A stretch of 44,660 nucleotides of DNA from Oscillibacter sp. (GTDB lineage: Bacteria; Bacillota; Clostridia; Oscillospirales; Oscillospiraceae). The position numbers were made by a program, and so were the translations under genes. Each line of letters opens with the position of its first letter. Position 1 is the first letter of the stretch. The notes under the pieces were generated by a model that saw only the letters and a program-made list of their open reading frames with translations, made no database searches and was not told the DNA's origin. The stretch is taken from the NCBI GenBank assembly GCA_017526785.1, contig JAFXQV010000032.1:1-44660 (forward strand), read 5' to 3'. Below, in pieces: positions 158 through 41,303 of the stretch.

Positions 158-186
158 TTGACAAAATCCCGCGCATGTGGTAGGAT
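158..186 (+). promoter_or_regulatory. sigma-A promoter of the aspS-gatCAB operon
   Basis: A perfect -35 box TTGACA (158-163) is followed after 17 bases by a -10 box TAGGAT (181-186), so transcription would begin near 193, at the start of the T-box leader. Positions 1-157 show no gene that I can support; reading frames there lack a ribosome site and family resemblance. Confidence 0.85.
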
Positions 187-192
187 ACACCC

Positions 193-410
193 CGGTTTGA
201 TGAAACCGCCGGGAGACTCCGTTTCCGGAAAGCCTGTCAGGGAGTACGCGCCGCGACTGAAAGCGCGTTCAGGGGAGTAGGAGGCGCGGGAACACTCCAC
301 GGTTCAACTCAACAGCGGCGAAAGTGGGCGCGGCGTGTCCGTGCCAATGCGGGTGGCACCGCGGGTTTGCGAACTCGTCCCGGAACAGTGATGTTCCGGG
401 GCTTTATTTT
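193..410 (+). ncRNA. T-box leader riboswitch upstream of aspS
   Basis: The hallmark T-box sequence TGGCACCGCG lies at 354-363. It is preceded by a GTGCC that can pair with it in the antiterminator, and followed by a terminator hairpin at 379-400 with a T-rich tail. T-box leaders sense uncharged tRNA and allow read-through into aminoacylation or amino-acid genes, which fits the aspS-gatCAB operon that begins 20 bases later. Two AGTA-containing stretches (243-246 and near 277) could belong to Stem I. I could not fold Stem I confidently, so the specifier codon is open; AAC triplets at 306-308 and 311-313 and GAC at 255-257 are candidates only. Confidence 0.88.
379..410 (+). terminator. T-box controlled intrinsic terminator
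   Basis: CCCGGAACA (379-387) pairs with TGTTCCGGG (392-400) across the loop GTGA, followed by GCTTTATTTT. This is the OFF structure that competes with the antiterminator formed around 354-363. Confidence 0.85.
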
Positions 411-429
411 GGGGAAATGAGGGATGAAC

Positions 430-2160
430 ATGTACAGAACCATGCACTGCAACGACATCAGGGAAAGCCACATCGGGCAGACCGTGCAATTAGCCGGGTG
501 GGTCGACACTGTCCGCGACCACGGCGGCGTGATTTTCGTCGACGTGCGCGACGAAAGCGGCGTGTCCCAGACGGTCATTCACGACGAGAGCATGCTAAAG
601 GGCGTCAACCGGGAAACGGTCGTTTCCGTGACGGGTACTGTCACCAAGCGCGACCCCGAAACCGTCAACGAGAAATTAGATACCGGCACCGTGGAATTAG
701 CCGTCGACAAGCTGGAAATCCTCGGGACGTGCCGGAATATGCTCCCGTTCGATATCGACGCCTCCCGCAACACCCGCGAAGATGTGCGCCTGAAGTACCG
801 CTATCTGGACTTGCGGAACCCCGTCATTCACAACAATATCATTCTGCGCTCGAAAGTCATCAGCTTTCTGCGGCGGCAGATGGAGGAACGCGGATTTATG
901 GACGTTCAGACGCCGATTCTCACGGCGTCGTCGCCGGAGGGGGCGCGTGACTTCCTTGTACCCAGCCGCAAGCACAAGGGCAAGTTCTACGCGCTCCCGC
1001 AAGCCCCGCAACAGTTCAAGCAACTGCTGATGGTGTCGGGCTTTGAGCGCTACTACCAAATCGCGCCCTGCTTCCGCGACGAGGACGCCCGTCAAGACCG
1101 TTCCCCCGGCGAATTTTATCAGCTTGACTACGAAATGTCGTTTGCCACACAAGAGGACGTGTTAAACGTCTGTGAAGAGGTCGTCGGGAACACGTTCCGG
1201 GCGTTCAGTCAGAAGCGCGTCACGGCGGCACCGTTCCGGCGGATTACGTTTGCCGATTCCATGTTAAAGTATGGCACCGACAAGCCCGACTTGCGAAACC
1301 CGCTTGTGATTTGCGACTTGACGGACTTTTTCGCCAACGTGAACTTCCCGCTGTTCAAGGGAAAGCCCGTGCGCGGGATTGTCGCCGACTGCAAGGGTCA
1401 GCCCCGGAGTTTCTTTGAGCGCTCTTTGAAATTCGCCATGAGTATCGGCATGAAAGGCCTTGGATACCTCACCCTCAACGGCGACGCGTTCAAGGGTCCC
1501 ATTGAGAAATTCCTGTCCCCCGAACAGAAGCGGGAAGTTATCGAGTTGACCGGGATGAAGGACGGCGAAACCCTGTTTTTCATCTGCGACACGCTCCGCG
1601 TCGTCAACCGCTACGCCGGGCAGATTCGCACATGGCTGGGCGAAAACCTCAATATCATTGACAAAGACGCGTACGAGTTCTGTTTTGTGGTCGATTTCCC
1701 GATGTACGAGATTGACGAGAGCAGCGGCGCGGTAATTTTCACGCACAACCCGTTTTCCATGCCGCAGGGCGGCTTGGAGGCGCTGGAATCGAAAGACCCG
1801 ACGGAGGTTCTGGCGTACCAGTACGACCTTGTCTGCAACGGCGTGGAACTGGCGTCGGGCGCGGTGCGGAACCACAGCACGGAGATTATGCGCAAGGCGT
1901 TCGCAATCGCGGGCTACAGCGCCGAAGAGCTGGAAAAGCGTTTCGGGGCGCTGTACACGGCGTTCCAGTACGGCGCGCCGCCCCACGCCGGAATGGCTCC
2001 CGGTATCGACCGTATGATTATGTTACTGGCCGACGAGGACACCATACGCGACGTTATCGCGTTCCCGCTCAACGGCAACGCGCAAGACCTGCTACTCGGC
2101 GCGCCCAGCGAAGTGACCGAACAGCAGTTGTTAGAGGCTAACATCAGTATCCGCGAGTGA
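430..2160 (+). CDS. aspS: Aspartyl-tRNA synthetase (bacterial type)
   Basis: Class II aspartyl-tRNA synthetase: charges tRNA(Asp), and in organisms without AsnRS also mischarges tRNA(Asn) with Asp for later amidation. The N-terminal OB-fold anticodon domain contains GWVDTVRDHGGVIF, then class II motif 2 (FRDEDARQDRSPGEF), the GAD insertion, and motif 3 (GMAPGIDRMIML) near the C-terminus. The His of RDHGG is typical of non-discriminating bacterial AspRS, and the GatCAB genes downstream support that role, but this is inference. Two starts are possible, ATG 424 and ATG 430. I chose 430 because GAGGG at 419-423 is adjacent to 424 but 6 bases from 430, and the N-terminus (MYRTMHC) then matches the family. 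From 430 the protein is 576 residues, normal for the family. It is the first gene of the T-box operon. Confidence 0.97.
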   Translation: MYRTMHCNDIRESHIGQTVQLAGWVDTVRDHGGVIFVDVRDESGVSQTVIHDESMLKGVNRETVVSVTGTVTKRDPETVNEKLDTGTVELAVDKLEILGTCRNMLPFDIDASRNTREDVRLKYRYLDLRNPVIHNNIILRSKVISFLRRQMEERGFMDVQTPILTASSPEGARDFLVPSRKHKGKFYALPQAPQQFKQLLMVSGFERYYQIAPCFRDEDARQDRSPGEFYQLDYEMSFATQEDVLNVCEEVVGNTFRAFSQKRVTAAPFRRITFADSMLKYGTDKPDLRNPLVICDLTDFFANVNFPLFKGKPVRGIVADCKGQPRSFFERSLKFAMSIGMKGLGYLTLNGDAFKGPIEKFLSPEQKREVIELTGMKDGETLFFICDTLRVVNRYAGQIRTWLGENLNIIDKDAYEFCFVVDFPMYEIDESSGAVIFTHNPFSMPQGGLEALESKDPTEVLAYQYDLVCNGVELASGAVRNHSTEIMRKAFAIAGYSAEELEKRFGALYTAFQYGAPPHAGMAPGIDRMIMLLADEDTIRDVIAFPLNGNAQDLLLGAPSEVTEQQLLEANISIRE

Positions 2161-2176: not shown

Positions 2177-2461
2177 ATGATGACGCCGGAAGGCCTGACG
2201 GCGCTGGAACAGCTCAACGAACTGCGTTTGACGGACGCCGAACGCGCCCAAACGCTTTCGATATTCGGGGACATGGAGGCGCGGGAGGCGGCGCTACAGG
2301 AAATCCCGACGGACGGCGTGGAAGTCATGGTACACGTCATGCCGCTGACGAACGTTCTGCGGGACGACGTACAAAAACAGCCGTTCACGCGGGAAAGCCT
2401 GCTGGAAGGCGCGCCGGAACACACCGACGACAGTTGGCAAGTGCCGCGACTGGTAAAGTGA
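2177..2461 (+). CDS. gatC: GatC1, Asp-tRNA(Asn)/Glu-tRNA(Gln) amidotransferase subunit C
   Basis: Small (94 aa) subunit that wraps around and stabilises GatA against GatB in the GatCAB transamidosome. The family pattern is visible: N-terminal helix beginning LTALEQLNELRLTDAE, a middle helix, VEVMVHVMPLTNVLRDD, and the C-terminal APEHTDDSWQVPRLVK, matching the usual APE...VPKVVE ending. GGGGGGAG at 2162-2169 places the ATG at 2177. It lies 16 bases after aspS and 8 bases before gatA1. This is the first of two gatC genes; the second (5097) shares only the family pattern, so the pair is not a recent duplication. Confidence 0.9.
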   Translation: MMTPEGLTALEQLNELRLTDAERAQTLSIFGDMEAREAALQEIPTDGVEVMVHVMPLTNVLRDDVQKQPFTRESLLEGAPEHTDDSWQVPRLVK

Positions 2462-2469
2462 GGGCAACA

Positions 2470-3657
2470 ATGGGACAGTTTGTGACGGAAATCAAATCCG
2501 GCGGCGGAATCGCCGTCGACGACACGATACAAGTTAAGGGCTACGAGACGAAAGCCGGGTCACGCATTCTGGAAGGGTTCCGGCCTCTGTTCAGCGCGGA
2601 GGCCGTGGAACGCCTTGAACGTGCCGGGTACGATATCGCCGGGAAAAGCGCCGTCGGCGAGTTCGGCCTTGACCTGCTGGGCGAGTTCGCGTACGGCGCG
2701 GAGACTTGCGACACGTTGCGCGGCGCGGCGGCGGAACTCGTCGCGGCGGGGACGGTCAAGGGCGCGTTGTGCGTCGACCTGAACGGCACCCCGCGCCGTG
2801 CGGCGGCGCTGTCGGGCGTCGACTTCCTGAAGCCCACCTACGGCACGGTCTCGCGCTACGGCGTGATTCCTTGCGCGTGTTCGGGAGAGCAAATCGGCGT
2901 GGCCGCGAAAACCGCCGGGGGCGTCCGGGAACTCCTGCGCGTCGTCGCCGGGCATGACCCGAAAGACGGTACCAGTCTCCCCGCCGAAACTTACGACTAT
3001 CACGACGGTAAAGCCGCGCCGGGCATGCGCGTGGGTATCGTGAAAGAGCTTTACGGCGCGGCGTCGGACGAACAGAAAGCGCGTGTCACGGCCTGCGCGG
3101 AACGTCTGCGCGGCATGGGCGTCGCCGTGGACGAAATCGCCCTGCCGCTGGCCGACGCCGCCCGTACGGCGTGGAATCTGTGCCTGTGCGCGGAGACCTG
3201 TAACAACGTCTCCCGCTACGACGGCGTGAAGTTCGGCTACCGCTCCCCCGATTACCGGAACATTGATGAGTTGTACGTCAACTCCCGTACGGAAGGCCTT
3301 AACTTCCTGACAAAGTTCGTGATTCTGTACGGCTCCGACGTGCTTTCCAAGGGGCGCTACTTCACCTGTTACGACAAGGCGCTGAAAGTACGCCGTCTCG
3401 TCGCGGAACAGGTCAAGGCACTGTTTAAGGACTATGACGCGCTACTGTGTCCGGCCTGTTCGGAAACCGAATACCGCCCGTACGACATCAAGGACGCCTT
3501 TATGACCGTGTTCGCCGAAAGCCTGTTCACGGCGGTTCCGAACCTGACGGGCATTCCGGCCATGGTGTCGGGCGGGGTACAGTTCATGGCCGACGCCCTG
3601 CGGGATAGTGACTTGTTGAATCTCGCGGAAGCGCTGGAGGGGGGTAACGCGTCATGA
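2470..3657 (+). CDS. GatA1, catalytically degenerate GatA-like (amidase signature) protein
   Basis: GatA normally hydrolyses Gln to supply ammonia to GatB. This 395-residue paralogue clearly belongs to the family: GVDFLKPTYGTVSRYGVI at about 117-134, NNVSRYDGVKFGYR, and the Tyr-Asp-Lys-Ala helix all align with GatA2 (5415). Yet the catalytic triad is gone. Aligned by eye, Lys79 is Asp17 (GGGIAVDDTI against GVPVGIKDNI), Ser154 of the GGSSGG loop is Leu83 (DTLRGAAAEL), and Ser178 of SDTGGS is Thr107 (VDLNGT). The Arg of the KRILLG segment, implicated in Gln binding, is Phe. The N-terminal helical region and the C-terminal GLPVGLQLLG segment are also missing. It is not a random pseudogene: the frame is open, GAGGG precedes ATG 2470, and the stop overlaps gatB1 in ATGA. 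An open frame continues upstream to 2170, but that part is only the shadow of gatC1. Likely a structural or regulatory pseudo-amidase. Confidence 0.88.
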   Translation: MGQFVTEIKSGGGIAVDDTIQVKGYETKAGSRILEGFRPLFSAEAVERLERAGYDIAGKSAVGEFGLDLLGEFAYGAETCDTLRGAAAELVAAGTVKGALCVDLNGTPRRAAALSGVDFLKPTYGTVSRYGVIPCACSGEQIGVAAKTAGGVRELLRVVAGHDPKDGTSLPAETYDYHDGKAAPGMRVGIVKELYGAASDEQKARVTACAERLRGMGVAVDEIALPLADAARTAWNLCLCAETCNNVSRYDGVKFGYRSPDYRNIDELYVNSRTEGLNFLTKFVILYGSDVLSKGRYFTCYDKALKVRRLVAEQVKALFKDYDALLCPACSETEYRPYDIKDAFMTVFAESLFTAVPNLTGIPAMVSGGVQFMADALRDSDLLNLAEALEGGNAS

Positions 3658-5084
3658 AATATGAAGCGGTCATCGGGCTGGAAACCCATGTCGAACTGGC
3701 GACAAAATCCAAAATCTTCTGTGCCTGCGGCGGACACTCCACCAAGGGCGAACCCAATACGCGTGTCTGTCCTGCCTGCGCCGGAATGCCCGGCATGCTT
3801 CCCGTGACGAATAAGCGCGTTGTCGAGCTGGCCATGCGCGCCGGGATTCTGTTGAACTGTGACATCAGCCGCTATACCACGTTCGACAAGAAGAGCTACT
3901 ACTACCCGGACTTGCCCTGCTCGTATCAGATTACGCAGTGGTTCCACCCCATTTGCCGTAACGGCTCCGTGGAGGTCACGACCAAAGACGGCACGCGGAC
4001 TATCGGAATCAAGCAGATTCACATGGAAGAGGACGCCGGGAAACTCGTACACGACGACTGGACGGAGACAACGCTTGTGGACTTCAACCGCACCAGTGTT
4101 CCGCTGATTGAGATTGTCAGCAAGCCGGACTTCCGTACCGCAGATGAGGTCATGGCGTATCTGGAAAAGCTCAAAACCATGTTCCGCTTTGCGAATATCT
4201 CCGAGTGCGAAGAGGGCGCTATGCGCTGTGACGTGAACATCTCGATTCGCCCGGAGGGTTCGGAGGAATTGGGCGTACGGACGGAAATCAAGAACATGAG
4301 TTCGTTGTCGTCTATCCGCCGGGCGATACAGTACGAGACGGCGCGGCACCTTGACGCCGTGGAGCGCGGCACGGAGACGCTTGTGCAGGAGACGCGCCGC
4401 TGGGACGACGTGAAAGGGCGTACGTTCTCCATGCGCAACAAGGAGACCGCGGCCGACTACCGCTACTTCCCCGACCCGAACCTCATGCCGATTCTAATTG
4501 GGGATGACTGGCTACAGCGTGTCCGCGACACCATGCCCGCGTCCGTGGAGGAAAAGACGGCGGAATACCAGTCGAAGGGGCTTTCCGAAAAGGAAATAGC
4601 GTCGCTGACCTCTGAACGCGCATTATGTGACCTGTTCGACGCCGTGACGGCGCTGGGGCGTGACCCGAAAGACACCGCCTCATGGATTCTGACGGAGTGC
4701 GGCGGCATTCTCCGCAAGCACGGACAGGTCATGAGTGAGTTGCAAATCACGCCGGAGCGGCTGTCGCGGATTATGGAGAAGGTGTCCGGGAACGAAATCA
4801 ACCGCGCCGCTGGGCGCAAGGTGCTGGAAGCCGTGCTGTACGAGGACGCAGACCCGGACGCGTACTGTGAGGCGCACAATCTCGGCGCACAGGGCGACGC
4901 CGACGCTGTGCGGCAGGTCGTGTTGAAGGTGCTGGACGCCACGCCAAACGCCGTCAAGGACTATCTGGGCGGCAAGAAAAAGGCGTTTCAGGCGCTTTTC
5001 GGCGGCTGTATGAAGGAGCTAAAGGGCAACGGAGACCCGCAAGTTATCCGCGCCCTGCTGGAGGAGGAACTTTCCAAGCGCTGA
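3654..5084 (+). CDS. gatB: GatB1, Asp/Glu-tRNA amidotransferase subunit B
   Basis: GatB phosphorylates the side-chain carboxylate of Asp-tRNA(Asn) or Glu-tRNA(Gln) with ATP and adds ammonia channelled from GatA. This 476-residue copy has the full architecture: N-terminal EAVIGLETHVEL with the Glu/His of the Mg2+/ATP site, zinc cysteines in KIFCACGG and RVCPACAG, HMEEDAGKLVHD, the ADYRYFPDPNL segment, and the helical plus YqeY-like tail ending MKELKGNGDPQV. Nothing essential appears lost, in contrast to its GatA partner. ATG 3654 overlaps the gatA1 stop by 4 bases, implying translational coupling. How this copy gets ammonia is unclear. Confidence 0.95.
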   Translation: MKYEAVIGLETHVELATKSKIFCACGGHSTKGEPNTRVCPACAGMPGMLPVTNKRVVELAMRAGILLNCDISRYTTFDKKSYYYPDLPCSYQITQWFHPICRNGSVEVTTKDGTRTIGIKQIHMEEDAGKLVHDDWTETTLVDFNRTSVPLIEIVSKPDFRTADEVMAYLEKLKTMFRFANISECEEGAMRCDVNISIRPEGSEELGVRTEIKNMSSLSSIRRAIQYETARHLDAVERGTETLVQETRRWDDVKGRTFSMRNKETAADYRYFPDPNLMPILIGDDWLQRVRDTMPASVEEKTAEYQSKGLSEKEIASLTSERALCDLFDAVTALGRDPKDTASWILTECGGILRKHGQVMSELQITPERLSRIMEKVSGNEINRAAGRKVLEAVLYEDADPDAYCEAHNLGAQGDADAVRQVVLKVLDATPNAVKDYLGGKKKAFQALFGGCMKELKGNGDPQVIRALLEEELSKR

Positions 5085-5096
5085 ACGGGAGGCCTT

Positions 5097-5381
5097 ATGG
5101 AAATCACGAGGGAAACCGCGCAATATGTGGCGAAACTGTCCCGGCTGGAAATCGCGGACGCCGACATGGACAGCGTATGCCGGGGGCTGACTTCGATTCT
5201 GAGCTATATGGACGAAATCAACGCGTCCATTGACACGGGGGCGGTATCCGCGACGGGCGGCGTCGCGGACTGCCCGACGCGTCCCGACACCGTGTCGCCG
5301 TCGATGAATCGCGCTTTCCTGCTGGACAACGCGCCCGAACACAGCGACGAAACGCCGATTGTGCCGCGTGTCGTGGAGTAA
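5097..5381 (+). CDS. gatC: GatC2, Asp-tRNA(Asn)/Glu-tRNA(Gln) amidotransferase subunit C
   Basis: Second GatC (94 aa), starting at ATG 5097 behind GGGAGG. It is closer to textbook GatC: ITRETAQYVAKLSRLEI at the N-terminus, a helix ILSYMDEINASIDTGAV, and the C-terminal LLDNAPEHSDETPIVPRVVE. It is 12 bases after gatB1 and 33 bases before gatA2, and is presumed to assemble with GatA2 and GatB2; cross-assembly with the first set cannot be excluded. Confidence 0.93.
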   Translation: MEITRETAQYVAKLSRLEIADADMDSVCRGLTSILSYMDEINASIDTGAVSATGGVADCPTRPDTVSPSMNRAFLLDNAPEHSDETPIVPRVVE

Positions 5382-5414: not shown

Positions 5415-6899
5415 TTGGAAATTCTGGACTTGACCGCCGTGGAACTCGGCGAACGAATACGCAGACGGGAGCTTTCCGCGCCGGAAGCGCTGGAAGCGGT
5501 GTACGGTGCCTTTCGGGCGCGTGACCGGAATTGGAACGCCTACACCGCCTTTGAAATCGACCCGGCGCGTACGGCGGCACAACACGCGCAAACCCTCTTG
5601 GACAGCGGGGAGACGCTTTCCCCGCTGGCGGGCGTCCCCGTGGGAATTAAGGACAACATCAGTGTCCGGGCGTGTCTGACGACCTGCGCTTCCCGGATAC
5701 TCCGCGACTACCGCGCCCCGTTTGACGCCACCGCCGTCCGGAAGCTCAAGGACGCCGGACTTGTCCCGGCGGGTACGCTCAATATGGACGAATTTGCAAT
5801 GGGTTCCACTTCGGAAACGTCCTGTTACGGCGCTGTCCGGAACCCGTGGAACCGCGGACACGTTCCGGGGGGTTCGTCGGGCGGCGCGGCGGCGGCCGTC
5901 GCGGCGCGGGAGTGCGTCTGCGCACTGGGTTCCGACACCGGCGGCAGTGTGCGGCAACCCGCGTCGTACTGCGGCGTCACGGGCTTCAAGCCGTCCTATG
6001 GGCGCGTGTCACGCTACGGCCTGATTGCCTACGGCTCGTCGCTCGACCAAATCGGGACGCTGGCGCGTGACGTGCGCGACTGCGCCGCGCTTCTGGACGT
6101 TATCGCGGGCGCGGACGCCATGGACGCAACGTCCGTGACGTTCCCCGACGCCGGGTTTCTGGGCGCGCTCAGCGGCGACATTCACGGCCTGCGCGTCGGC
6201 GTGCCGGAGGAGTGCTTCGGCGACGGCGTGGAAACGGACGTGGGCGAACGCGTGGAGGCCGCGCTGGACGAACTCCAACGCGCCGGGGCGGAACTCGTGC
6301 CGCTTCGACTGCCCTTCATCCGCTACGCCGTCCCGGTGTACTATATCCTTGCCACGGCGGAGGCGTCGTCGAACCTGTCGCGGTTCGACGGCGTGAAGTA
6401 CGGCTACCGCGCCGAACATTACACGACCATGGAAGAACTTTACACGCGTTCGCGGAGTGAGGGCTTCGGGAAAGAGGTGCAAAAGCGGATTCTGCTGGGG
6501 ACGTTCGTGCTTTCATCCGGCTACTACGACGCCTACTACAACAAGGCCTTGAAACTTCGACAAACGCTTGTGGACGGCTTCGCGGAGGCGTTCGGACGCT
6601 GTGACGTTATCGCGTCCCCAGTGTCGCCGACGACCGCGCCCGCGCTGGGGGCGTCGCTGTCCGACCCGCTGAAAATGTACCTGTCGGACGTTTTCACGGT
6701 TCCGGCGAACCTCGCCGGACTGCCGGGGCTGTCCGTGCCTTGCGGCTTCGACCGTCAAGGACTGCCCGTGGGGCTACAGCTACTCGGCGCGGCGGGCGCG
6801 GACAGTACCGTACTCAACGCCGGACACGCCTACCAGCTTGTGACCGACTGGCACAAGCGCCGCCCGCAACATTCGGAGGAGGTGTCCGGGAATGTCTGA
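5415..6899 (+). CDS. gatA: GatA2, active-type glutamyl-tRNA(Gln)/aspartyl-tRNA(Asn) amidotransferase subunit A
   Basis: Glutaminase subunit of GatCAB (494 aa, normal length). The complete Ser-cisSer-Lys triad is present at canonical numbering: Lys79 in GVPVGIKDNI, Ser154 in VPGGSSGG, Ser178 in LGSDTGGSVRQPA. FKPSYGRVSRYGL, the KRILLGTFVLSSGYYDAYY helix and LPVGLQLLG complete the fold. Translation starts at TTG 5415, positioned 8 bases after AGGAGGG (5401-5407); no better ATG exists near the conserved N-terminus. The gene overlaps gatB2 by 8 bases. It is the likely ammonia source for this set, and possibly for GatB1 too. Confidence 0.97.
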   Translation: MEILDLTAVELGERIRRRELSAPEALEAVYGAFRARDRNWNAYTAFEIDPARTAAQHAQTLLDSGETLSPLAGVPVGIKDNISVRACLTTCASRILRDYRAPFDATAVRKLKDAGLVPAGTLNMDEFAMGSTSETSCYGAVRNPWNRGHVPGGSSGGAAAAVAARECVCALGSDTGGSVRQPASYCGVTGFKPSYGRVSRYGLIAYGSSLDQIGTLARDVRDCAALLDVIAGADAMDATSVTFPDAGFLGALSGDIHGLRVGVPEECFGDGVETDVGERVEAALDELQRAGAELVPLRLPFIRYAVPVYYILATAEASSNLSRFDGVKYGYRAEHYTTMEELYTRSRSEGFGKEVQKRILLGTFVLSSGYYDAYYNKALKLRQTLVDGFAEAFGRCDVIASPVSPTTAPALGASLSDPLKMYLSDVFTVPANLAGLPGLSVPCGFDRQGLPVGLQLLGAAGADSTVLNAGHAYQLVTDWHKRRPQHSEEVSGNV

Positions 6900-8331
6900 A
6901 CGCTGGGAAACCGTCATCGGGCTGGAAGTCCATGTCGAGCTGTCCACGAAATCGAAAATTTTCTGCGCCTGCTCTACGACCTTCGGCGGCAGTCCGAATA
7001 CACATTGTTGTCCGGTGTGCATGGGGCTTCCGGGTACGCTTCCGGTACTCAATCAAAAGGTGCTGGAATACGCCGTACGCGCCGGGCTGGCGCTCAACTG
7101 TACCATTGACCGGGAAACCCGCTTCGACCGCAAGAATTACTTTTACCCCGACCTGCCCAAGGCCTACCAGATTTCGCAACTCTACCGCCCGATTGCGCGT
7201 GGCGGCTATGTGGACATTACCGCCGACGGGGTGTCGAAACGCATCCGCATTCACGAAATGCACATGGAGGAGGACGCCGGGAAACTCATACACTCCGACT
7301 ACGGCCACGAGACCTACCCGGACTATAACCGCGCCGGGGTGCCGTTACTGGAAATCGTGTCGGAGCCGGACTTCCGGAGCGGCGCGGAGGTGCTGGCGTA
7401 TCTGGAAAAAATCCGGTCACTGTTCACGTATCTTGGAATTTCGGACTGCAAAATGCAAGAGGGTTCCATGCGTGCCGACGTAAATTTGTCCGTCCGCCGC
7501 GCCGGGGACGCCGCTTTCGGGACGCGTACCGAGACCAAGAACATCAACTCGTTACGCGCCATCGAACACGCCATTGAAAGCGAACGCTCACGGCAGATTC
7601 ACGTTTTGTCGAACGGCGGGACGGTCGTGCAGGAGACGCGACACTGGAACGACGACACGAAAACCAGTACCGCCATGAGAAGCAAGGAGAACGCCCCCGA
7701 TTACCGCTACTTCCCGGAGCCGGACTTGCCCGTGATTCACATCGACGAGGCGTTTTTGCAGTCGGCGCGGGACAGTCTGCCGGAGTTCGCGGAAGCGCGT
7801 CAGGCGCGGTTCGTGTCAGAGTACGCGCTACCGGACAATGACGCGGCACGCTTGACGGTACGCCGCGAGACGGCGGAACTGTTCGAGGCGTTAGTGTCGC
7901 ACGGCGCGAAGCCCCGCGACGCCGCGAACTGGTTAATTGTACACGTTCCGCACGTCCTGAAAACGCTGTCGGCGGACGCGGAGAGTATGAACGTGGACGC
8001 GGCGGAACTGGCCGAACTGATACGGCGTACGGAGAGCGGCACTGTCAGCCGCCCGGACGCCTTACAGGTTCTGGAAGCGTTGCTGTCGGCGGCGGAACCG
8101 TTCCGCGTGGCGGACTATATCAAAAATCATGGCATGTCCATTGATAACGACGAGGGCGCGTTAGAAGACGTGATACAGCGCGTGATAGCCGCAAACCCAA
8201 AAGCCGTCAGCGAGTACCACAGCGGCAAAACAAAGGCAATCGGATTTCTGATTGGGCAGGCCATGAAGGAATTAAAGGGCAAGTCGACGCCCGCGACTGT
8301 ACACGAACGCATGGAGGCCGCCTTACAGTGA
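6892..8331 (+). CDS. gatB: GatB2, Asp/Glu-tRNA amidotransferase subunit B
   Basis: Second GatB (479 aa). ETVIGLEVHVELSTKSKIF, zinc cysteines in FCACSTTF and HCCPVCMGLPG, FYPDLPKAYQISQLY, MHMEEDAGKLIHSDYG and PDYRYFPEPDLP are all standard, closer to the general bacterial consensus than GatB1. The helical/YqeY tail ends with AMKELKGKSTPATV. ATG 6892 lies inside the end of gatA2 (8-base overlap), and the stop overlaps the GTG of the next gene by 4 bases. Together with GatC2 and GatA2 it forms a complete conventional amidotransferase. Confidence 0.97.
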   Translation: MSERWETVIGLEVHVELSTKSKIFCACSTTFGGSPNTHCCPVCMGLPGTLPVLNQKVLEYAVRAGLALNCTIDRETRFDRKNYFYPDLPKAYQISQLYRPIARGGYVDITADGVSKRIRIHEMHMEEDAGKLIHSDYGHETYPDYNRAGVPLLEIVSEPDFRSGAEVLAYLEKIRSLFTYLGISDCKMQEGSMRADVNLSVRRAGDAAFGTRTETKNINSLRAIEHAIESERSRQIHVLSNGGTVVQETRHWNDDTKTSTAMRSKENAPDYRYFPEPDLPVIHIDEAFLQSARDSLPEFAEARQARFVSEYALPDNDAARLTVRRETAELFEALVSHGAKPRDAANWLIVHVPHVLKTLSADAESMNVDAAELAELIRRTESGTVSRPDALQVLEALLSAAEPFRVADYIKNHGMSIDNDEGALEDVIQRVIAANPKAVSEYHSGKTKAIGFLIGQAMKELKGKSTPATVHERMEAALQ

Positions 8332-9356
8332 ATATTTTACTGGTACTGACGGGCGGCACCATCTGCACGAGTGTCCGGGACGGTCTGCGCACACTCGACA
8401 CGGAGGCGGCGTCGTTGCGGCTTGTGGAGGCGTTCCGAAACTCCGGTTCCGCGTTCGCGGACGCCCGTTTCACAGTCGGGGAGCGCTTCCACACGCTCAG
8501 CGAAAATATGACCGTGGCCGTCTGGAATCGTATGGCGGACTGCTTCCGCACCGTGGACTTTTCGCGGTTCGACGGCGTGATTGTCGCTCACGGCACGGAT
8601 ACACTTGCTTATACCGCTTCCATGTTCGCGTTACTGCTGGCGGGCGTCGGTGTGCCGATAGTGTTTGTGTCGAGCAACGCGCCGCTGGAACACGGCGACG
8701 CCCGCGCCAACGGTGCCGCGAATTTCCGCGCCGCCGTGGAGTGCGTCGGAGGCGGTATCCCGCCGGGGGTGTACGTGACCTACCGGAACGTCTCGGACAG
8801 GCGCATGTACTTGCACGAGGCTTGTCGTTTGAGGCAGTGCGGCGACTACTCCGAGGACTTCCACAGCGCCGGGGCGGTGGATATCACGGAGACACTGTCC
8901 GGAATATCCGGCGCGGCGTCCCCGTCCGCGCCGCTTCTGTACGCGCTCGACGAACCCTTGACCGACTGCGTTTTGCATATCCGCCCCTATGTCGGTATCC
9001 GCTACGACGCGTACGGCGTCGAGAAATTCCGGGCGGTTTTGCACGGCGCGTACCATTCCGGCACGGCCTGTATCGGTGACGGACACGCGCCGGGGTCTAT
9101 TCTGTACCTGCTGAACCGCTGCGCCGACGGCGGGACGGAACTGTACCTTTCCCCGGCGCGGAATCAGGGCGAGGTCTACGACACGGTTCCCGCCATGCTG
9201 AACCACGTTCACGGCGGGAAGCGTATCATCCCGCTATACGGCACGACCACGGAAACCGCCTACTGCAAACTGCTCTTGTGGCATTCCTGCAAAAGTGTCC
9301 GGGAACGGTATCCCGATTTTCTGACTTGCAATTTCTGCGGCGAGGCGATACAATAG
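8328..9356 (+). CDS. Asparaginase-like (AnsA/GatD superfamily) protein
   Basis: 342-residue member of the L-asparaginase superfamily (Asn to Asp plus ammonia). The nucleophile motif LTGGTI gives Thr11, and IVAHGTDTLAY gives Thr90/Asp91; SSNAPLEHGDARANGAANF corresponds to the usual SxxPLxxxRxDGxxN stretch. I do not see the conserved Thr-Lys of the second catalytic dyad; in the corresponding region (LHEACRLRQCGDY) an Arg seems to take its place, so activity needs testing. No signal peptide, so cytoplasmic. It starts at GTG 8328, overlapping gatB2 by 4 bases. It lacks the N-terminal domain of archaeal GatD, an asparaginase relative that feeds ammonia to the GatB homologue GatE; given the dead GatA1, an ammonia-supplying role is conceivable but speculative. 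Confidence 0.85.
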   Translation: MNILLVLTGGTICTSVRDGLRTLDTEAASLRLVEAFRNSGSAFADARFTVGERFHTLSENMTVAVWNRMADCFRTVDFSRFDGVIVAHGTDTLAYTASMFALLLAGVGVPIVFVSSNAPLEHGDARANGAANFRAAVECVGGGIPPGVYVTYRNVSDRRMYLHEACRLRQCGDYSEDFHSAGAVDITETLSGISGAASPSAPLLYALDEPLTDCVLHIRPYVGIRYDAYGVEKFRAVLHGAYHSGTACIGDGHAPGSILYLLNRCADGGTELYLSPARNQGEVYDTVPAMLNHVHGGKRIIPLYGTTTETAYCKLLLWHSCKSVRERYPDFLTCNFCGEAIQ

Positions 9357-41144: not shown

Positions 41145-41221
41145 GCCCTCGTAGCTCAGCCGGATAGAGCGTTCGCCTCCTAAGCGAAAGGCCACGCGTT
41201 CAAATCGCGTCGAGGGTGCCA
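41145..41221 (+). tRNA. tRNA-Arg, anticodon CCT
   Basis: 77 bases. Acceptor GCCCTCG pairs with CGAGGGT (one G-T pair); anticodon stem TTCGC/GCGAA encloses CTCCTAA, giving CCT at 41179-41181; T stem ACGCG/CGCGT with loop TTCAAAT. CCA is encoded (41219-41221). It reads AGG codons. Confidence 0.96.
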
Positions 41222-41227
41222 GCATTG

Positions 41228-41303
41228 CCGGGTGTAGCGCAGTTGGTAGCGCGCCTGCTTTGGGAGCAGGTGGCCGGGCGTTCGAGTCGCCCCACTCGGA
41301 CCA
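41228..41303 (+). tRNA. tRNA-Pro, anticodon TGG
   Basis: 76 bases. Acceptor CCGGGTG/CACTCGG, anticodon stem CCTGC/GCAGG around TTTGGGA, anticodon TGG; T stem GGGCG/CGCCC with loop TTCGAGT; A73 and encoded CCA. It lies 6 bases after tRNA-Arg, so the two are processed from one transcript. Confidence 0.96.

Follow-up and report, generated by a model that had tools for sequence, protein, structure and literature searches.

A GatA clade without the catalytic triad beside aspS in Oscillibacter sp. and its relatives: a probable ammonia-fed Asp-tRNAAsn amidotransferase

Introduction

The bacterial amidotransferase GatCAB is described as a Gln-dependent enzyme in which GatA supplies the ammonia. For the yeast mitochondrial counterpart GatFAB, extracts of PMC4027206 report amidation with NH4Cl as donor; truncation of the N-terminal domain of GatF lowered Gln-dependent transamidation, and the NH4Cl-dependent reaction could rise. 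Here we analyse gatA1 (positions 2470..3657, on the forward strand like all window features up to position 9356 given below), a gene in a contig of 44,660 nucleotides from Oscillibacter sp. (GCA_017526785.1, JAFXQV010000032.1), which as a whole is referred to as the window. Profile scores, alignments and the predicted fold mark its product as a pseudo-GatA, that is, a protein with the GatA fold but without the Lys/Ser/Ser triad or the Gln-binding residues (genes of this type are written gatA*). It belongs to a clade in which the supply of one of the twenty aminoacyl-tRNAs seems to depend on a GatCAB without Gln-hydrolysis residues. We consider it probable that GatC1-GatA1-GatB1 is a glutaminase-free, ammonia-fed Asp-tRNAAsn amidotransferase in which GatA1 serves as a structural subunit. 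We know of no earlier natural ammonia-only tRNA-dependent amidotransferase, and found no description of a triad-less GatA in the open-licence literature, as judged by titles and abstract openings.

Results and discussion

Residues and predicted fold of GatA1

The ATG at position 2470 opens a 395-residue GatA relative that is flanked by gatC1 and gatB1 and lies downstream of aspS. Aligned with GatA2 of the same gene row, the triad has changed from Lys79 to Asp17, from Ser154 to Leu83 and from Ser178 to Thr107. An alignment with the Staphylococcus aureus GatA chain 2df4_A was concordant at positions 79 and 178, with position 154 falling in a gap. The proposal of the initial annotation that all three catalytic residues are replaced is thus borne out by GatA2 and, at two of the positions, by 2df4_A. 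Neither the alignment with 2df4_A nor that of 106 pseudo-GatA rows revealed an alternative triad elsewhere in the protein. The Gln-binding sites are lost as well, since Arg358 corresponds to Val284 and Asp425 to Ser351; the Phe that had been read in place of the Gln-binding Arg is the adjacent residue. Gln-site residues are also named for yeast GatFAB in the extracts of PMC4027206, and their equivalents are lost in pseudo-GatA. Against the curated GatA profile TIGR00132, GatA1 scored 235.6 bits, below the cut-off of 481.1 bits, and its high-confidence predicted model retains the amidase-signature fold of GatA. The ATG of gatB1 overlaps the gatA1 stop, in agreement with the coupling of the two genes noted before.

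Spread, conserved residues and selection

A family search of 120 genomes, the window's own included, detected close pseudo-GatA proteins in four genomes (G107, G085, G048, G001) and more distant ones in three (G111, G028, G008). In an order sample of 394 genomes, 19, again including the window's own, scored more than 400 bits with the pseudo-GatA profile; they represent 16 genera and 10 families. The next match below this group reached 321.5 bits; Lys79 is present in the ten rows read directly beneath. For spread outside the order, a phylum sample of 398 genomes was covered, and only the window's genome (G000) and G813 exceeded 400 bits in it; the next best match scored 354, and the most divergent members could fall below the 400-bit mark. 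Finally, a scan of named genomes yielded 313 relatives, the best 80 of which are titled uncultured Clostridia from metagenomes, many of them from the ruminant gut. The idea of a gene limited to the window's genome was rejected, as relatives were found in the family and order samples and in named genomes. A sequencing or assembly artefact was likewise rejected because the triad is also lost in a further 105 rows, which include 104 distinct sequences.

All 41 pseudo-GatA rows used for tree building grouped together against 36 ordinary GatA proteins (FastTree support 1.0). Apart from one mis-cut row (N_L147), these 36 ordinary GatA proteins had also been set off by a branch with 100/100 support in a first tree. 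By these trees, the pseudo-GatA proteins are one clade with one origin.

To describe this clade, the window sequence was aligned with seven family loci, the best 80 of the 313 named-genome relatives and 18 order loci. The resulting 106 rows, 105 of them distinct (L115 is identical to L122), were selected by likeness to pseudo-GatA, so that the counts describe the clade. Position 79 (GatA2 numbering) is Asp in 99 rows and Glu in seven, never Lys. Leu occupies position 154 in 95 rows, and position 178 most often holds Ala (65 rows), followed by Ser (27) and Thr (10); Ser154 and Ser178 do not occur together in any of the 106. No row has Arg or Asp at the equivalents of Arg358 and Asp425. In place of Gly and Gln, Asn176 is found in 97 rows and Arg181 in 105, and position 174 is acidic throughout. 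Of the 189 columns conserved in 36 ordinary GatA proteins, pseudo-GatA keeps 66. Another 23 now conserve a different residue, 14 fall in deletions and the remaining 86 are relaxed. The new conserved pocket comprises Asp/Glu79, Asp80, Asp/Glu174, Asn176, Arg180 and Arg181. The switch from Lys to an acid at position 79 in every row suggests that the pocket may have been re-tooled for ammonium.

Ratios of nonsynonymous to synonymous substitution rates (dN/dS) among six close relatives had a median of 0.158 for gatA1 (15 pairs), compared with 0.135 for gatA2 (10), 0.05 for gatB1 (15) and 0.043 for aspS (10). Judged by these values, gatA1 is under purifying selection near the window, with no pseudogene-like relaxation. 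Catalytic residues are lost and two of the 106 genes carry an internal stop, as a pseudogene in decay would lead one to expect. Such decay is extremely improbable given a dN/dS near 0.16, 23 new conserved switches, a single clade that extends across families and a high-confidence predicted fold. The view of the initial annotation that GatA1 is a pseudo-amidase retained in a GatCAB set, rather than a decaying gene, therefore stands, being in line with the dN/dS of the six close relatives, the new conserved residues and the single clade.

Gene order and the GatB partner

Homologues with the same triad loss occur beside aspS, as the initial annotation had suggested looking for: of 98 loci, 93 have the full series aspS-gatC-gatA*-gatB in this order, and five are truncated where the locus ends. 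The aspS of L055 sits 2.5 kb away from the gat genes. Among the seven family loci, no aspS was found beside the pseudo-GatCAB of G111 and G008 (L037, L039). The GatB1 partner is well conserved; across 97 proteins, 116 of 165 columns conserved in ordinary GatB are kept, 16 have switched, and 33 are relaxed or lost.

Genome census

We surveyed 47 genomes, comprising 26 pseudo-GatA carriers, 12 genomes with ordinary GatA only and nine without GatA, for asparaginyl-tRNA synthetase (AsnRS), glutaminyl-tRNA synthetase (GlnRS), GatB, asparaginase, AsnA and the asparagine synthetase domain. AsnRS over cut-off was detected in only five of the 26 pseudo-GatA carriers, compared with eight of the 12 ordinary-GatA genomes and all nine genomes without GatA. 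Fifteen carriers (G107, G460, G232, G142, G286, G173, G313, G294, G264, G256, G403, G204, G371, G239, G363), drafts that are 68-97% complete, have the pseudo-GatA as their single GatA homologue, a single GatB and no AsnRS over cut-off. The evidence for a single GatA comes from a Pfam Amidase search in G107 and, in the other 14, from the pseudo-GatA profile, a profile that also picked up ordinary GatA proteins in numerous genomes. Eleven carriers were left out of this set on account of AsnRS (G085, G111, G008, G308, G317), two GatB genes (G000, G129), 59% completeness with no GatB found (G048), another amidase match (G001, G028) or two GatA-profile matches (G130).

GlnRS exceeded its cut-off in 14 of the 15 genomes (not in G294), and these 14 need no Gln-tRNA amidation. 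Unless an AsnRS went unrecognised or lies in the missing parts, aspS-gatC-gatA*-gatB appears from these gene inventories to be the only route to Asn-tRNAAsn in the 15 genomes. The supply of free Asn is a distinct question; a full-length asparagine synthetase domain (>250 bits) was present in nine of the 15 and in 10 of all 26 carriers. AsnA was found only in G000 among the 26, where the homologue lies on contig C29:2848-3525 (250.6 bits); no AsnRS over cut-off was detected in that genome.

Leader and aspartyl-tRNA synthetase

The operon opens with aspS (424..2160), which encodes a bacterial-type aspartyl-tRNA synthetase (AspRS) with an RDHGG motif (NCBIfam PRK00476, 767 bits, cut-off 443). It is preceded by a T-box-like leader of the aspS-gatCAB operon (205..405) with a candidate Asn specifier, AAC, at 291-293 and a putative antiterminator bulge, TGGCACC, at 354-360. 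Further upstream, a promoter-like TTGACA-17 bp-TAGGAT (158..186) was recognised by eye, without a scan. The Rfam T-box model (RF00230) gave a partial match at 321-382 (35.1 bits, E 2.7e-6, model positions 158-216), below the gathering threshold of 93; at that threshold, Rfam detected no T-box at this site or before aspS in four relatives. The bulge motif GGCACCGCG (GGGACCGCG in L108) precedes aspS in all but two of 71 loci. In 64 of these 69 leaders, AAC followed by a purine was found by pattern, and in four of the other five by eye; 16 leaders were aligned. Under the T-box pairing rule, the bulge C would pair with G73 of tRNAAsn or tRNAAsp. We infer that AAC is the specifier codon of the leader.

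RDHGG is present in 71 of 73 operon AspRS proteins, the other two having no N-terminus in the cut. The His of this motif is a mark of non-discriminating AspRS, with Leu in discriminating enzymes, a distinction not given in the papers we looked through. A second AspRS encoded elsewhere in the genome carries R[DN]LG in nine of 10 genomes read. That of the window's genome (L170, G000:C5) differs, being 49% identical to the operon AspRS and having no R[DN]LG motif. The operon AspRS is thus presumed to be non-discriminating and, together with the T-box-like leader, would point to tRNAAsn. The option of a different tRNA, raised in the initial annotation, found nothing in its support.

Proposed mechanism and alternatives

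In the ammonia-fed reading, the operon AspRS would charge Asp onto tRNAAsn. GatB1 would then phosphorylate the Asp side chain with ATP and amidate it with ammonia from solution rather than from hydrolysis of Gln by GatA. GatA1 would act as scaffold and funnel, holding GatC and GatB and shaping the ammonia channel, and conserved acidic and polar residues, which may let ammonium in or retain it, would form the core of a remodelled Gln pocket. The Asn-tRNA specificity of leader and AspRS, ammonia as the donor, and the roles of channel and acidic pocket are what we infer from residues and gene content. Among the options listed at the outset, ammonia from another source is the best reading, and the ordinary GatA2 nearby is not the rule, given 15 genomes with pseudo-GatA only. 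It is possible, if doubtful, that the Gln pocket was re-tooled once into an ammonium-capturing funnel, with the acidic residue 79 set in an Asp/Asn/Arg network. The result would be an ammonia-only tRNA-dependent amidotransferase, possibly tuned by a linked, re-tooled asparaginase-like protein, on which a set of gut lineages would rely for all of their Asn-tRNA.

The asparaginase-like protein could also have a more direct part. Its gene (8328..9356) overlaps the gatB2 stop and encodes a divergent type I asparaginase-like protein, and the missing glutaminase might be replaced by it in trans. This would make a chimera in which an enzyme of asparaginase type supplies a bacterial GatCAB with ammonia, much as archaeal GatE is fed by GatD. 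Of 16 carriers with an asparaginase-family gene, 11 have it no more than ~4 kb from the pseudo-gatCAB genes on one contig, compared with none of nine ordinary-GatCAB controls that have such a gene (Fisher p 0.001). Among 74 loci whose downstream flank is 2.5 kb or longer, 19 have the asparaginase-like gene after the gat genes; it touches or overlaps them in three (L040, L041, L094), and L051 is a distant member among the 16 non-touching loci. In a sequence-profile search of the PDB, the protein matched GatD best (1zq1, E 1.6e-25), tied with an asparaginase (2.3e-25), and its predicted model has an asparaginase fold (Foldseek). However, its score of 74.9 bits is below the GatD cut-off of 310. 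The catalytic set of GatD is Thr, Thr, Asp and Lys. The two Thr and the Asp are kept in the window protein, but Lys254 of 2d6f aligns with Gln170, which is invariant in the family (19 aligned; window and L040-L117), as are Cys13, Cys171, Cys248, His239 and His243. With Gln at the catalytic Lys, a role as a plain ammonia source loses weight, and we regard replacement in trans as unlikely.

Alternatively, GatA1 might be fed or partnered by an ordinary glutaminase, with GatA2 forming mixed complexes or leaking ammonia to GatB1 in two-set genomes. The two gat sets head to tail in the window and the two GatB genes in five genomes (G000, G085, G129, G308, G317) would fit such a partnership. It is quite improbable, because no second GatA was found in the 15 genomes. 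A rather improbable reading is that no amidation takes place. GatA1-GatB1 would then hold Asp-tRNAAsn or Gln, or regulate through binding them, or would have a different substrate. The lone pseudo-GatCAB kept in G111 and G008 despite AsnRS and GlnRS, with no aspS found beside it, speaks for this possibility. Against it, GatB1 keeps most of its conserved columns, and the 15 genomes would be left with no Asn-tRNAAsn route found here. Mixed GatA1-GatA2 complexes and mere holding or sensing, both suggested initially, hence do not explain genomes in which pseudo-GatA is the sole GatA.

Several observations weigh against the ammonia-fed reading itself. The internal stops (L063, L135) may be error or decay, and G239, which belongs to the set of 15, has L135 as its sole GatA. 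Ser is still present at position 178 in the 27 rows mentioned above. AsnRS is present in the five carriers listed among those left out, and two of these, G111 and G008 (96 and 98% complete), have both AsnRS and GlnRS; therefore the complex must serve another use there and be dispensable for charging. Moreover, the absences rest on incomplete drafts, at the completeness given above, and a two-stage search. Finally, the linkage of an asparaginase-like gene in 11 of the 16 carriers having one hints at a dedicated donor and not at free ammonia.

If confirmed, an ammonia-fed GatC1-GatA1-GatB1 would illustrate how the amidase function can be given up although transamidation remains indispensable, and would offer a natural test of the ammonia route to GatB. 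It would also link translation to the ammonia of rumen and gut, and proteins annotated as 'GatA' would not always have the activity that defines the name.

Other features of the window and related loci

The window contains two gatCAB sets head to tail, gatC1-A1-B1 followed by gatC2-A2-B2, and then the asparaginase-like gene. In the first set, gatC1 (2177..2461) scored 50.9 bits with TIGR00135 (cut-off 47.1), and gatB1 (3654..5084), the transamidase/kinase subunit, 568 bits with PRK05477 (cut-off 338). GatB1 was not identified as a GatE-type transamidase, reaching 148.6 bits against a cut-off of 456 (PRK04028) and 110.5 against 319.55. The second set consists of gatC2 (5097..5381; TIGR00135, 51.5 bits, cut-off 47.1), gatA2 (5415..6899; TIGR00132, 587.7 bits, cut-off 481.1), an ordinary GatA with K79/S154/S178, and gatB2 (6892..8331; PRK05477, 624.7 bits, cut-off 414). 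Genes for tRNA-Arg(cct) and tRNA-Pro(tgg) are adjacent at 41145-41303.

In two other loci, the bacterial-type aspS of the pseudo-gatCAB operon is preceded by a gene for an archaeal-type aspartate--tRNA(Asn) ligase (L047 6255-7589, 431 bits, cut-off 353; L078 5052-6401, by likeness). Of 74 loci with sufficient downstream sequence, 22 have a gene resembling AlaX or the editing part of AlaRS after gatB or after the asparaginase-like gene; that of L047 (13694-14872) is an example. Two of these AlaX-like genes were tested and both fell under the AlaXM cut-off; a mischarged-tRNA editor in the gene row is possible.

Comparison with known systems

With the bacterial GatCAB Asp-tRNAAsn/Glu-tRNAGln amidotransferases (2df4, 3h0l, 4wj3, 3kfu), the pseudo-GatCAB shares gatC, the GatA fold as predicted, a conserved gatB and a partner gene for AspRS. 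It differs in that GatA1 has neither the triad nor the Gln-binding Arg/Asp, is about 100 residues shorter than GatA2 and has a new conserved pocket. In Clostridium acetobutylicum, to go by the titles of work by Saad and co-workers from 2012 and 2013, tRNA-dependent Asn formation is reportedly under T-box control; as far as titles tell, such control within the Clostridia would be a shared trait. AsnA is ammonia-dependent and acts on free Asp, not on Asp-tRNA. It could be seen as a functional analogue that likewise would make the Asn amide from free ammonia, with a fold unrelated to pseudo-GatCAB. Archaeal GatDE resembles the present loci in the linkage of an asparaginase-family gene to a gene for a GatB/E-type transamidase. 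In contrast to GatDE, GatC and GatA are present here, and GatB1 lies far under the GatE cut-offs; the linked protein scores too low for GatD, has a predicted fold closer to that of type I asparaginases, and has Gln at the catalytic Lys. With yeast mitochondrial GatFAB, the proposed enzyme would share transamidation that bypasses the glutaminase, as described for NH4Cl in the extracts of PMC4027206, whereas GatFAB keeps its glutaminase and has GatF in place of GatC.
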